NCBI RefSeq assembly: GCF_001570965.1
Contig: NZ_BCSR01000016.1
Span: forward strand, 1-54,279
Length of the DNA: 54,279 bases
Origin: Janibacter corallicola NBRC 107790
Lineage (GTDB): Bacteria > Actinomycetota > Actinomycetes > Actinomycetales > Dermatophilaceae
Direction: 5' to 3'
In this document: positions 456-53,570 of the stretch, piece by piece
How positions within the stretch are numbered: the stretch's first letter is position 1
Layout of the letters: each line of letters opens with the position of its first letter
The notes under the pieces: generated by a model
Databases searched by the model: none
Seen by the model: the letters and a program-made list of their open reading frames with translations, nothing else
Told to the model about the DNA's origin: nothing
Made by a program: the position numbers and the translations under genes

Positions 456-2066
456 TCAGTGCGCGAAGTGCCGCGTACCGGTGAAGTACATGGTGACGCC
501 GGCCGCCTCCGCGGCCTCGATGACCTCCGCGTCCCGCTTCGACCCGCCGGGCGCGATGACCGCGCGCACACCGGCGTCGAGGAGGACCTGCAGACCGTCC
601 GCGAAGGGGAAGAAGGCGTCCGAGGCGGCCACGGCCCCCTGCGCCCGCTCCTCGCCGGCCCGGGAGACCGCCAGGTGGCAGGAGTCGACGCGGTTGACCT
701 GGCCCATGCCGATGCCGACCGAGGCGCCGTCGTCCGCGAGGAGGATGGCGTTGGACTTGGTGGCGCGCACCGCTCGCCAGGCGAAGGCGAGGTCGGCCAG
801 GGTCTGCTCGTCGGCCGCCTCGCCGCAGACGAGCGCCCACTGCGCCGGGTCGTCGCCGTGGCCCTGCATCGGGCCGTCGTCCTCCCCCTTCGCCACGACG
901 GCGTCGATCGCGTCGCGGTCCTGCACGAGCAGACCACCGGAGATCGGTCGCACCTCGACCCCACCGGGCGTCGGTGTCGCGGCGCGCAGCAGGCGGCGGT
1001 TCTTCTTCTCCCGCAGGATCGTCAGCGCCTCCTCCTCGAAGTCCGGCGCGATGACGACCTCGGAGAAGGTGCCGTTCAGGGCCGTCGCCATCGCCGCGGT
1101 GACCGGCCGGTTGCTCGCGACGATGCCGCCGTAGGCCGACACGGGGTCGCAGGCCGCGGCGCGCTCGTAGGCGGCCTCGATGTCGGCGCCGACGGCGATG
1201 CCGCACGGGTTGGCGTGCTTGATGATCGCCACCGTCGGCTGGTCGGCGTGGTCATGGGCCGCACGCCAGGCCGCGTCGCCGTCGACGTAGTTGTTGTAGG
1301 ACATCTCCTTGCCGTGCAGCTGCTCGGCGCCGGCGATCCCGTCCGACTGCCCGGCGGCGTCGGAGACGTAGAGCGCGGCGCGTTGGTGCGGGTTCTCGCC
1401 GTAGCGCAGCGGCCGCTGCCGGGTCCAGGTGCCGCCGACGAGGGCGTCGAAGCCGGTGCCGTCACCCGTGTCCGCGATGGTCCCGGCCATCCACTCCGCC
1501 ACGGCCACGTCGTAGCGCGCGGTGTGCCCGAAGGCCCGGGTGGCCAGCAGCTGACGCTGCTCGAGGGTGAAGCCGCCCCCGCGCACCGCCTCGAGGACCT
1601 CACCGTAGCTCGCCGGGTCGGTGACGACGGCGACCGAGCCGTGGTTCTTCGCCGCCGCGCGAACCATGGTCGGGCCGCCGATGTCGATCTTCTCGACGCA
1701 GTCCGCGACCGATGCACCGGAGGCGACGGTCTCGGCGAAGGGGTAGAGGTTGACCACGACGAGGTCGAAGGGGGCGACCTCCAGCTCCTGGAGCTGGCGG
1801 ACGTGGTCCGGGATCCGGGAGTCGGCGAGGATGCCGGCGTGCACGCGCGGGTGCAGCGTCTTCACCCGGCCGTCGAGGCACTCGGGGAAGCCGGTGAGCT
1901 CCTCCACCTTCGTCACGGGCAGGCCGAGGCCCTCGATGGCGGCAGCGGAACCACCGGTGGAGACGAGCTCGACACCGGAGTCGGCGAGGCCCCGCACGAG
2001 GTCCTCCAGTCCGCTCTTGTCGAAGACGGAGACGAGGGCGCGGCGGATCGGACGGCGTTCGGACAC
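456..2066 (-). CDS. purH: Bifunctional AICAR transformylase/IMP cyclohydrolase PurH
   Basis: PurH catalyses the last two steps of de novo IMP synthesis: AICAR formylation with 10-formyl-THF, then ring closure. The 536 residues match the usual bacterial length. The N-terminal MGS-like cyclohydrolase domain shows SVFDKSGL and STGGSA and then [13 protein letters not shown]; the transformylase domain carries KHANPCG near residue 284. The frame is open further upstream, but the GTG at 2066 is chosen because an AGGAG box sits 8 nt before it and [18 protein letters not shown] is a normal family N-terminus. It lies 137 bp downstream of purN and 32 bp upstream of folD. Confidence 0.96.
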
Positions 2067-2203
2067 TTCGGGTGCTCCTGGTTCGCTGGTTCGTGCGGGT
2101 GCACCCAGGCGGGCGATGCACCCCGACTCCACTCCCCGGTGGTGACCCACCTGCGCCAGTCGTGACCTCGTCAGTCTATGCCGGTCCCGCAAAGACCAGC
2201 CAA

Positions 2204-2806
2204 TCAGCCGAGGCGGCAGCGGCGCCCGTCCACGTGCCAGCCGCGGGTGGCCATCGCGGTGACCACGTCGACGAGCATGGCCCGCTCGACGACCTTGATC
2301 CGTTCGTGCAGGCTCTCCTCGGTGTCCTCGTCGAGCACCTCGACGACCCGCTGGTCGATGATCGGCCCGGTGTCGACGCCGGCGTCGACGAGGTGGGCGG
2401 TCGAGCCGGTGACCCGGACCCCGTGGGCGAGGGCGTCGCGCACACCGTGCGCGCCGGGAAAGGAGGGCAGCAGCGCCGGGTGGGTGTTGAGCACCGTGTG
2501 CTGCAGGACGCGGGGGCCGAGGATCTTCATGAACCCGGCGGTGACCACCAGGTCCGGGGAGTGCTCGGCGATGCGCGCGGCGAGGGCCTCGTCCCAGGCG
2601 CCCCGGTCGGGGTGCTGACCGACCCGCTCGACGAAGGTGGGCACCCCGGCGGCCACCGCCCGCTCCAGGCCCACCGTCCCCGGCCGGTCGGCGCCGGCCG
2701 CGACCACCCGCGCGGGCAGCGTGCCGGTGGCCTGTGCGTCCAGGAGTGCCTGCAGCAGGGTGCCGGAGCCGGAGACGAGGACGAGGAGACGAAGGGGGAC
2801 GCTCAC
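2204..2806 (-). CDS. purN: Phosphoribosylglycinamide formyltransferase PurN
   Basis: PurN transfers a formyl group from 10-formyl-THF to GAR, the third step of purine synthesis. The 200 residues match the family. Seen: the phosphate-binding loop [14 protein letters not shown] near the N-terminus, [12 protein letters not shown] near residues 105-116 with the catalytic Asn and His, and [17 protein letters not shown] with the conserved Asp. The start is a GTG with a TAGACT box 7 nt upstream and no clear Shine-Dalgarno, suggesting a leaderless transcript. The gene is followed by purH. The order PerM-like, purN, purH is also that of Mycobacterium tuberculosis. Confidence 0.96.
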
Positions 2807-2813
2807 GGCGGCG

Positions 2814-2819
2814 AGTCTA
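2814..2819 (-). promoter_or_regulatory. Leaderless -10 box of purN
   Basis: TAGACT lies on the minus strand 7 nt before the GTG start of purN. This spacing puts the expected transcription start at or next to the start codon. No -35 box was assigned. Confidence 0.6.
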
Positions 2820-2837
2820 GGGACCGGCCCCCTTCGC

Positions 2838-3185
2838 TCAGAAGTCCGGTCGGTCCATGCCGGACACCACGATGCCCACCGCCACCGCGACCACGGCGAC
2901 CGTCGCGGCGGCCACCCACCACCTGCGGGGCGGGTGGGCCACGGCGTTCCAGACCGTCCACCCGAGCTCGAGCAGCGTCGCCACCCCGGTGATGACCGCA
3001 CCGACGACGGCCGGCCCGAAGACCTTCGTACGGGGTGCTGCGACGCCCCCCGGATCGGTCGGCGGCAGATAGTACGTCATCGTGATCTGGCCCGCCATCA
3101 CCGCCACGGTCAGGGCGCAGACGGCGAGCAGGCAGAGTGCGCCGCCGATCCGCGGCCACTGCCGCCCGACCGGGTCAGTCGTCAC
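2838..3185 (-). CDS. Small three-helix membrane protein
   Basis: The 115-residue protein has three hydrophobic segments (roughly residues 15-35, 55-80 and 90-110) with a short tail ending DRPDF. No catalytic motif or named family was recognised. The GTG at 3185 is chosen because GAGAGGA precedes it; the open frame continues upstream without a better start. It lies 31 bp upstream of the purN start on the same strand, so it could feed into purN transcription, but purN also has its own promoter-like box. The function is unknown. Confidence 0.75.
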   Translation of the reverse strand: MTTDPVGRQWPRIGGALCLLAVCALTVAVMAGQITMTYYLPPTDPGGVAAPRTKVFGPAVVGAVITGVATLLELGWTVWNAVAHPPRRWWVAAATVAVVAVAVGIVVSGMDRPDF

Positions 3186-3328
3186 ACCGGGCCATCCTCT
3201 CGTTGCTGTCCTCGCGGCCATGGTGCCAATTCCGGCATCGCGACGCGAGTGCGTCCAATCCACGAGTCGGCCGGCTCCGAAACCCCTGCACGAGGCGGCA
3301 CCACGTCGCCGAGAGGAGAGGATCCGCA

Positions 3329-52930: not shown

Positions 52931-53030
52931 GAGTGTCCTTTGTCTCTGCTGCGAAGGGGGGAAACGGCGACGCCCCGGAGGACCCGGGTGGGCCCGCCCG
53001 GGGCGTGCGTCGAAGCTGGGTGGCTGCTCG

Positions 53031-53327
53031 TCAGCCGACGATCGCGAGGACGTCGCGCGCGGAGAGGATCAGGTACTCCTCGCCGCCGTGCTTGACCTCG
53101 GTGCCGCCGAACTTGGAGTAGATGACGCGGTCGCCGACGGAGATGTCCATGGGGACGCGCTCGTCGCCGTCGTCGTTGAAGCGGCCGGGGCCGACGGCAA
53201 CGACCTCGCCCTCCTGCGGCTTCTCCTTGGCGGTGTCCGGGATGACGAGGCCGGACGCGGTGGTCTGCTCGGCCTCGATGCCCTTGACGACGATCCGGTC
53301 CTCGAGCGGCTTGATGGAAACCGACAC
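53031..53327 (-). CDS. groES: Co-chaperonin GroES
   Basis: The 98-residue lid of the GroEL chamber. It shows [18 protein letters not shown], the mobile loop [17 protein letters not shown] near 25-40, [11 protein letters not shown], and the C-terminal [18 protein letters not shown] at 53327 has GGAG 5 nt upstream. It is the first gene of the heat-shock operon, transcribed from a promoter framed by two CIRCE elements. Confidence 0.97.
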
Positions 53328-53410
53328 GCTGACTCCTTTGGTGAGGGTCTGGTTATGAGTTCTCGGTGTGCCGGGCCGGGCGCCGTCGCGGGGGTCGACC
53401 AGCCATGGCG

Positions 53411-53437
53411 TTGGCACTCGCCGGTGGTGAGTGCCAA
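53411..53437. promoter_or_regulatory. CIRCE element 1
   Basis: TTGGCACTC, 9 bp, GAGTGCCAA: a perfect match in arm length and spacing to the HrcA operator. It lies downstream of the groES -10 box, between promoter and gene. Confidence 0.95.
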
Positions 53438-53442
53438 GGTTT

Positions 53443-53472
53443 AATCTATGCCGCTGGTTGGCACTCGGTCAA
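53443..53472 (-). promoter_or_regulatory. groESL promoter
   Basis: On the minus strand TTGACC (-35) and TAGATT (-10) are separated by 18 bp. The -35 lies within CIRCE element 2 and the -10 just upstream of CIRCE element 1, so HrcA binding at either site would block polymerase. Confidence 0.85.
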
Positions 53473-53484
53473 CCTGAGTGCCAG
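53458..53484. promoter_or_regulatory. CIRCE element 2
   Basis: TTGGCACTC, 9 bp, GAGTGCCAG, with one mismatch in the arms. It covers the groES -35 box. The two CIRCE centres are 47 bp apart. Confidence 0.9.
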
Positions 53485-53570
53485 CCGGCTCCCACCCCCT
53501 TCGCCGCGCGGGCTCCCCCGGCCCCGTGATCAGCCGTGTGGCGCCCCCTTCGTCCGCGCCCCGGCGCCCA

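Follow-up and report, generated by a model that had tools for sequence, protein, structure and literature searches.

A clade-limited 9-mer of Janibacter as a probable DNA uptake word with dialects in one actinobacterial family

Why would a stretch of ordinary actinobacterial chromosome repeat one 9-mer, CGAAGGGGG, dozens of times on both strands? The stretch analysed here, contig NZ_BCSR01000016.1 of Janibacter corallicola NBRC 107790 (54,279 bases, hereafter the window), holds 48 exact copies, 23 on the plus and 25 on the minus strand, the first at 884 and the last at 53544-53552, matching the count in a preliminary description made from the letters alone. We consider, with a probability of roughly 0.8, that CGAAGGGGG is a DNA uptake word, a "self" tag, of this genus (g1) and its sister genus (g35), and that it belongs to an independently evolved system with dialects in Actinomycetota. 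The preliminary description had proposed a signature of this kind; density, strand balance, intergenic excess, inverted pairs, a low density in low-GC DNA and at one insertion, clade limits, dialects and com and tad genes agree with it. Genomes, genera, contigs and loci are cited by handles beginning with G, g, C and L.

RESULTS

Over-representation in the window and in the genome

Dinucleotide shuffling of the window (100 shuffles) yields a mean of 1.01 copies and a maximum of 4, and an order-3 Markov model, under which CGAAGGGGG has the highest z of all window 9-mers, yields 1.70, consistent with the earlier estimate of fewer than two. GAAGGGGG occurs 51 times and is preceded by C in 48, reproducing the shared flanking C noted before. 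G is favoured two bases upstream of CGAAGGGGG (33/48 copies) and C at two downstream positions (38/48 and 31/48), both of which are codon third positions in the commonest reading frame of the word; no clear longer consensus is seen in the context of the 48 copies. Our own gene calls, 54 genes that may miss some, place 31 of the 48 copies in genes, 24 of them in the Lys-Gly or Pro-Phe frame described previously. The remaining 17 are non-coding (13 in the preliminary description), compared with ~10% of the window, in agreement with the reported non-coding excess. The window is ordinary chromosome. For the 20 of its 54 called genes that were compared with Pfam, matches point to purH, riboflavin genes, sucCD, pcrA, murT, guaA and guaB, as well as a serA-like 2-hydroxyacid dehydrogenase, a chaperonin and others.

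Confinement to the window, or a count near a higher-order Markov expectation, had been named beforehand as observations that would speak against the word. In the whole assembly (3,107,415 bases, 92 contigs) the word stands 833 times on each strand, with 14 and 8 for a control of reversed letters, and the enrichment is therefore genome-wide. Across 454 kb of this genome (the window plus 20 stretches of 20 kb), 284 copies were counted vs 14.6 expected (order-3 Markov). Among the 27 one-base variants in the same 454 kb, CGAAGGGAG (59 vs 13.8 expected) and CGAAGGGGA (40 vs 9.4) are raised and CGAAGGGGT is weakly raised (29 vs 11.6); changes at positions one to seven give no clear excess. G063, the complete genome of another g1 species, likewise has 107 CGAAGGGAG vs 9.9 expected and 63 CGAAGGGGA vs 6.6. 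Aligned sites alternate between CGAAGGGGG and CGAAGGGAG among species of g1: the minus-strand word at 21967..21975 reads CGAAGGGAG in 8 species of the genus and CGAAGGGGG in five (G066, G055, G064, G056 and G091), and the plus-strand word at 23607..23615 reads CGAAGGGAG in 10.

Clade limits

A family sample of 186 genomes from 53 genera delimits the enrichment: all 16 g1 and all three g35 genomes carry 797-1939 copies, and none of the 167 other family genomes is enriched (11-80 copies). An order sample of 396 genomes, 34 of them from this family, adds 362 from outside it, none enriched, the maximum being 101 copies in an 8.3-Mb genome. Overall, 19 of 548 distinct genomes are enriched and 529 are not. 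A tree of 44 PcrA proteins, including 15 g1 and three g35 rows, unites g1 and g35 in one clade (support 100/99) with G067 (g27) adjacent (97/85). G053, the g1 genome with the lowest count, groups with g35 there with weak support (88/73).

Other words in the same family

Within 20 kb around pcrA, CGGCATAC is the top word in nine of 23 other genera and CGGCATCC in two (G034, G178); CGGCATAC dominates loci L186-L191, L194, L199 and L202. If a genus is scored as positive when one or more of its genomes hold at least 400 copies and at least 2.5 times the reversed control, CGGCATAC passes this threshold in 30 of the family's 53 genera, with up to 4724 copies (G099), and numbers 7-41 in g1 and g35 genomes. 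The control is also high in g4 and g18 (ratio 2.5 to 6.5), and g3, g9 and g13 show a weak rise of CGGCATAC that stays below threshold (for example, 293 vs 74 in G004). Among the 362 genomes of the order outside the family, it reaches at most 180 copies, near control.

CGGCATCC, one base off CGGCATAC and counted within the family, is high in all seven genomes of g9, g15 and g51 (G017, G018, G034-G037 and G178; 2099-4480 copies, 8.7 to 17.6 times control), with 241-1336 copies and 1.05 to 6.6 times control in the remaining family genomes. G036 and G037 carry 1217 and 1189 CGGCATAC beside CGGCATCC, as if between dialects. In total, 34 of the 53 genera bear a word and 19 pass none of the three word thresholds. 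Three species are without the word of their own genus, G113 (50 copies, 98% complete), G008 (37 copies, 89% complete) and G083 (19 copies), providing natural experiments for competence loss or word change. The word also extends to Flexivirga caeni, whose locus (L039) holds 21 CGGCATAC in 22.4 kb vs 2.8 expected and whose pcrA region is 88.7% identical in DNA to G029 and 88.0% to G093. NCBI taxonomy places Flexivirga in the Dermacoccaceae of the Micrococcales.

In 15 loci, CGGCATAC has 1.92 copies per kb outside genes and 0.72 inside, and its close pairs have no clear plus-minus excess (8 minus-plus and 5 plus-minus vs 3.4 expected each). A scan of word-less genomes, 20-60 kb each of G153, G160, G095, G001, G010, G020, G022, G082, G088, G184 and G113, gave no convincing further word, at a sample size that would miss a word with a few hundred genomic copies. 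In 60 kb of G083 (L207, L268, L269), a species without CGGCATAC, CGCCGTAC has 50 copies where 9.7 are expected and is perhaps a weak further dialect; frequent 10-mers in G008 are presumed repeats.

Placement of the word and rival explanations

Coding sequences of J. corallicola hold 224 copies in 436 kb, whereas synonymous shuffling (471 coding sequences, 30 shuffles) leaves a mean of 30.4 and a maximum of 39. Because of this difference, and because density is higher outside genes, codon or codon-pair bias is rejected as the cause, as had been argued from the non-coding copies.

A structural or regulatory motif, either part of a terminator or a site bound by an abundant chromosomal protein, is an improbable source of the word that would nevertheless suit its placement. 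In 488 kb of the genome (own gene calls), density is 1.72/kb outside genes vs 0.51/kb inside, a 3.4-fold difference. Neighbours less than 80 bases apart take the arrangement CGAAGGGGG-loop-CCCCCTTCG in 27 of 34 cases vs 3.9 expected, the minus-plus order numbering 2 vs 4.0 and same-strand pairs 5 vs 6.9, and 17 of the 27 plus-minus pairs are intergenic. RNA folding is good for all five such pairs of the window, with energies from -21.6 to -49.6 kcal/mol and z of -2.3 to -10.6 vs shuffles, and none of them has a U-run. Their place and the neisserial parallel suggest that such pairs may act as terminators. Yet 225 of the 303 copies in 488 kb are genic, on both strands, with 78 outside genes. A promoter-binding regulator would moreover have to accommodate the greater density between convergent genes (12 copies in 4.1 kb) than between divergent ones (17 in 12.0 kb), and the replacement of CGAAGGGGG by an unrelated word in sister genera is hard to reconcile with a core chromosome protein.

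Genome-wide density would equally fit a Chi-like recombination signal for RecBCD, AdnAB or a similar enzyme, Chi words being likewise short, over-represented and different from lineage to lineage, but the orientation of the copies makes this quite improbable. Forward and reverse copies number 62/59 in one half of the G063 record and 55/62 in the other (20 stretches of 20 kb, the record start being taken as near the origin by usual convention), each stretch containing 8-19 copies, and 58/57 over the first 220 kb of contig C1 of J. corallicola. Chi and KOPS were rejected on this absence of orientation bias, in keeping with the earlier argument from balanced strands, and the distribution in G063, neither polar nor regional, does not match that of KOPS, matS or parS; the intergenic excess and inverted pairing are also unexpected for a polar, mostly genic signal. 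A HIP1-like iterated word, maintained through DNA modification, repair or biased mutation, would share with CGAAGGGGG its short length, genome-wide spread and clade limits, as well as an equal density in genes of atypical codon use. We regard it as very improbable: CGAAGGGGG is not its own reverse complement, unlike the palindromic HIP1, only three of the 27 one-base variants are clearly raised, and codon choice offers no explanation. Low-GC and inserted DNA is also word-poor. Scored in 2-kb windows, density is 0.17/kb in the tenth with the lowest GC and 0.85/kb in the top quarter; by our own arithmetic, composition by itself would yield roughly three quarters. In G063, a methyltransferase insertion with its left neighbourhood has 0 words in 8.7 kb, followed by 14 in the next 11.3 kb.

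Competence and pilus genes

If CGAAGGGGG is an uptake word, its bearers would be expected to carry competence genes, and the preliminary description had suggested looking for comEA, comEC and pilus genes. A ComEC profile matches in 180 of the 186 family genomes, J. corallicola included. The comEA finding covers G063, where a 260-aa protein with SLBB and helix-hairpin-helix (HHH_3) domains, the layout of ComEA, lies directly 5' of a 799-aa ComEC; the search in J. corallicola was for comEC. PilM of type IVa pili (PilM_2 profile) was detected in 3 of 80 family genomes and in none of 14 g1/g35 genomes, and the classical type IVa pilus was rejected as the uptake filament on the former count.

Three TadA-like ATPases are encoded in J. 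corallicola, and two tad clusters were described. The C59 cluster (tad-1) follows an order like tadZ-tadA-tadB-tadC, then a symporter gene and pilin-like genes encoding a 44-aa DUF4244 protein and two TadE/Tad-like pilins. The C41 cluster (tad-2) comprises tadA-tadB-tadC, a 74-aa Flp-like protein and three TadE/Tad-like pilins. By Pfam score, three of the five pilins fall just short of the family threshold; tadZ and the 74-aa protein are without a match. The symporter gene of tad-1, for a sodium:alanine symporter (L296:10865-12310), lies on the opposite strand, flanked by tadC and the DUF4244 gene. G056 has a gene of similar appearance in this place (L302:6243-7694), whereas G063 and G092 have none.

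The tad-2 class of tadA is present in 43 of 44 word-bearing vs 27 of 36 word-less genomes (Fisher p 0.004, ignoring kinship), a tally that counts as present the G063 copy, which is truncated, and the matches of G004, G007, G045 and G099, which are partial or split. By eye, the TadE-like pilin of tad-1 has two cysteines past the hydrophobic helix in five g1/g35 genomes and in G164, one in word-bearing G049 and none in word-less G153 (loci L296, L298, L300, L302, L304, L309, L311 and L312). This pattern is a weak lead to a possible receptor.

Observations that weigh against an uptake word

Several results count against CGAAGGGGG as an uptake word. ComEC does not discriminate, because word-less genomes are also among the 180 with a match, and the tad-2 class of tadA likewise occurs in the 27 word-less genomes. 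G092 bears the word and is without this tadA, having another tad cluster, and in G063 the gene is cut after 276 residues by a C-5 cytosine methyltransferase stretch (L299:4260-9570). As G063 nonetheless carries 1860 words, either the loss of tadA may be recent or tad-2 dispensable. With these two genomes, tad-2 is not supported as a strict determinant of the word and is not strictly required to keep it, and a candidate receptor is therefore more likely to reside in a tad-1-type cluster or to be another protein. Genes of atypical codon use are also no poorer in words (0.61, 0.55, 0.54 and 0.35/kb from the lowest to the highest codon-score quartile), which weakens the simple view that acquired genes are word-poor.

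Retention between species, which the preliminary description had listed as a check, gave a mixed outcome. Of 225 aligned places in the g1+g35 clade, 61 (27%) retain the exact word, compared with 15-33% for flanking 9-mers depending on species. CCC codons within words are well kept (65/70 vs 780/1589 elsewhere), but GGG codons (43/147 vs 674/2201) and AAG codons (64/112 vs 1422/1746) are not, and the evidence for purifying selection on individual word sites is mixed. At 21 aligned sites in three CGGCATAC genera, the word is found at none. Molecular drive would predict turnover at permissive sites and not strict conservation, a prediction that the retention data fit only loosely.

DISCUSSION

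Proposed mechanism

We infer that CGAAGGGGG steers DNA uptake, and a reading protein is part of the same proposal. Competent cells would bind outside DNA through a Tad/Flp-type pilus, of which a minor pilin or a partner would prefer CGAAGGGGG; the bound DNA would then enter through ComEA/ComEC and be recombined. Because tagged DNA would be taken up more often, tags would spread and accumulate in the genomes of relatives by molecular drive, settling at tolerant sites such as intergenic DNA, paired stem-loops and Lys-Gly or Pro-Phe positions. The use of CGGCATAC and CGGCATCC by related genera would then mean that the preference of the receptor changed in evolution.

Comparison with known systems

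DNA uptake words are known only from Neisseriaceae and Pasteurellaceae, two proteobacterial families, as stated in a 2025 paper (PMC12616744). The DNA uptake sequence (DUS) of Neisseriaceae, in the parts of Frye 2013 (PMC3630211) that bear on it, is a short word present in thousands per genome, intergenic DNA included, with inverted pairs linked to terminators and dialects that track phylogeny, some members having no obvious word; J. corallicola and its family resemble it in each of these respects, inverted pairs being found here too. The word is unrelated, the host belongs to Actinomycetota and Tad/Flp clusters stand in place of a PilM-type type IVa pilus (77 of 80 genomes are without PilM). 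The DUS-ComP pairing, in which ComP is the receptor on a type IVa pilus, is not matched either, PilM_2 being found in 0 of 14 g1/g35 genomes. All eight neisserial dialects have a CTG core in common (Frye 2013, PMC3630211), whereas CGAAGGGGG and CGGCATAC are unrelated. The uptake signal sequence of Pasteurellaceae, as portrayed in sections of two papers (PMC12616744, PMC5031613), is nine bases long, is enriched across the genome and marks DNA as self, and CGAAGGGGG is likewise a genome-wide 9-mer; word and host differ, and the only flanking preference seen upstream here is the G two bases away in 33/48 copies.

Micrococcus luteus belongs to the same order as Flexivirga. A further parallel, in gene content, is transformation in this species, which, in the portions of Angelov 2015 concerned (PMC4322843), involves comEA/comEC and two tad clusters, both clusters being required; J. 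corallicola has comEC and two tad clusters. The main text of that report, the part considered here, contains no mention of 'uptake sequence' or 'uptake signal' (PMC4322843). Literature searches on uptake sequences in Actinobacteria, Micrococcales, M. luteus and Intrasporangiaceae returned no title on such a word, subscription papers being largely outside their reach, and a search for four spellings of the two words gave a sole whole-word match, under a title on multiple-locus variable-number tandem-repeat analysis (MLVA) typing of Ralstonia.

Somewhat less firmly than the assignment of CGAAGGGGG itself, we think it likely that the family harbours a third, independently evolved tagged-uptake system, to our knowledge the first in Gram-positives, working through Tad/Flp pili and using at least three words. 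On the g1+g35 branch, CGGCATAC would have been replaced by the unrelated CGAAGGGGG without visible relics, and CGGCATCC would have arisen at separate points of the tree. If true, this third case, from a different phylum, would mean that tagged DNA uptake evolves repeatedly. It would also indicate that 34 actinobacterial genera, all of one family, are naturally competent, which a limited literature search did not find reported, and adding the word to DNA might offer a way to transform these high-GC bacteria. The 34 genera with a word and the 19 without provide material for finding the receptor, and let one ask how a receptor and 1,700 genomic sites change together.

Positions of the word in the window

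Five inverted pairs in the window, each with a plus-strand word followed by a minus-strand word, form predicted stem-loops. The most stable, a perfect stem-loop at 51266..51305 (words at 51266-51274 and 51297-51305; -49.6 kcal/mol), lies between convergent called genes, one encoding a Cpn60 chaperonin. The pair at 42939..42975 (42939-42947 and 42967-42975; -32 kcal/mol) is directly 3' of a major facilitator superfamily (MFS) gene, and that at 36090..36121 (36090-36098 and 36113-36121; -26.9 kcal/mol) is inside a called gene. The remaining two span 2790..2836 (2790-2798 and 2828-2836; -28.5 kcal/mol) and 45230..45259 (45230-45238 and 45251-45259; -21.6 kcal/mol).

Besides the copy at 23607..23615 given above, single plus-strand words match exactly at 1766..1774, 4248..4256, 7654..7662, 10240..10248, 11777..11785, 16246..16254, 21718..21726, 21760..21768, 24945..24953, 28189..28197, 28707..28715, 30664..30672, 31671..31679, 32721..32729, 39683..39691, 49820..49828 and 52952..52960. 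On the minus strand, two exact matches at 19267..19275 and 19353..19361 lie in the pcrA/uvrD-like gene. Further exact single copies on this strand, apart from that at 21967..21975, occupy 884..892, 10477..10485, 10856..10864, 13013..13021, 20891..20899, 23505..23513, 25062..25070, 28360..28368, 32049..32057, 37329..37337, 38837..38845, 44162..44170, 45194..45202, 47434..47442, 49323..49331, 53495..53503 and 53544..53552.

Two further words were recorded. CCCTAGGG has one copy in the 454 kb of J. corallicola. ACCCTAGGG gives 31 counts over both strands in 420 kb of G063 vs 0.2 expected, and in examples (L224:5860 and 5903, L226:593) it often lies within a longer palindromic repeat.

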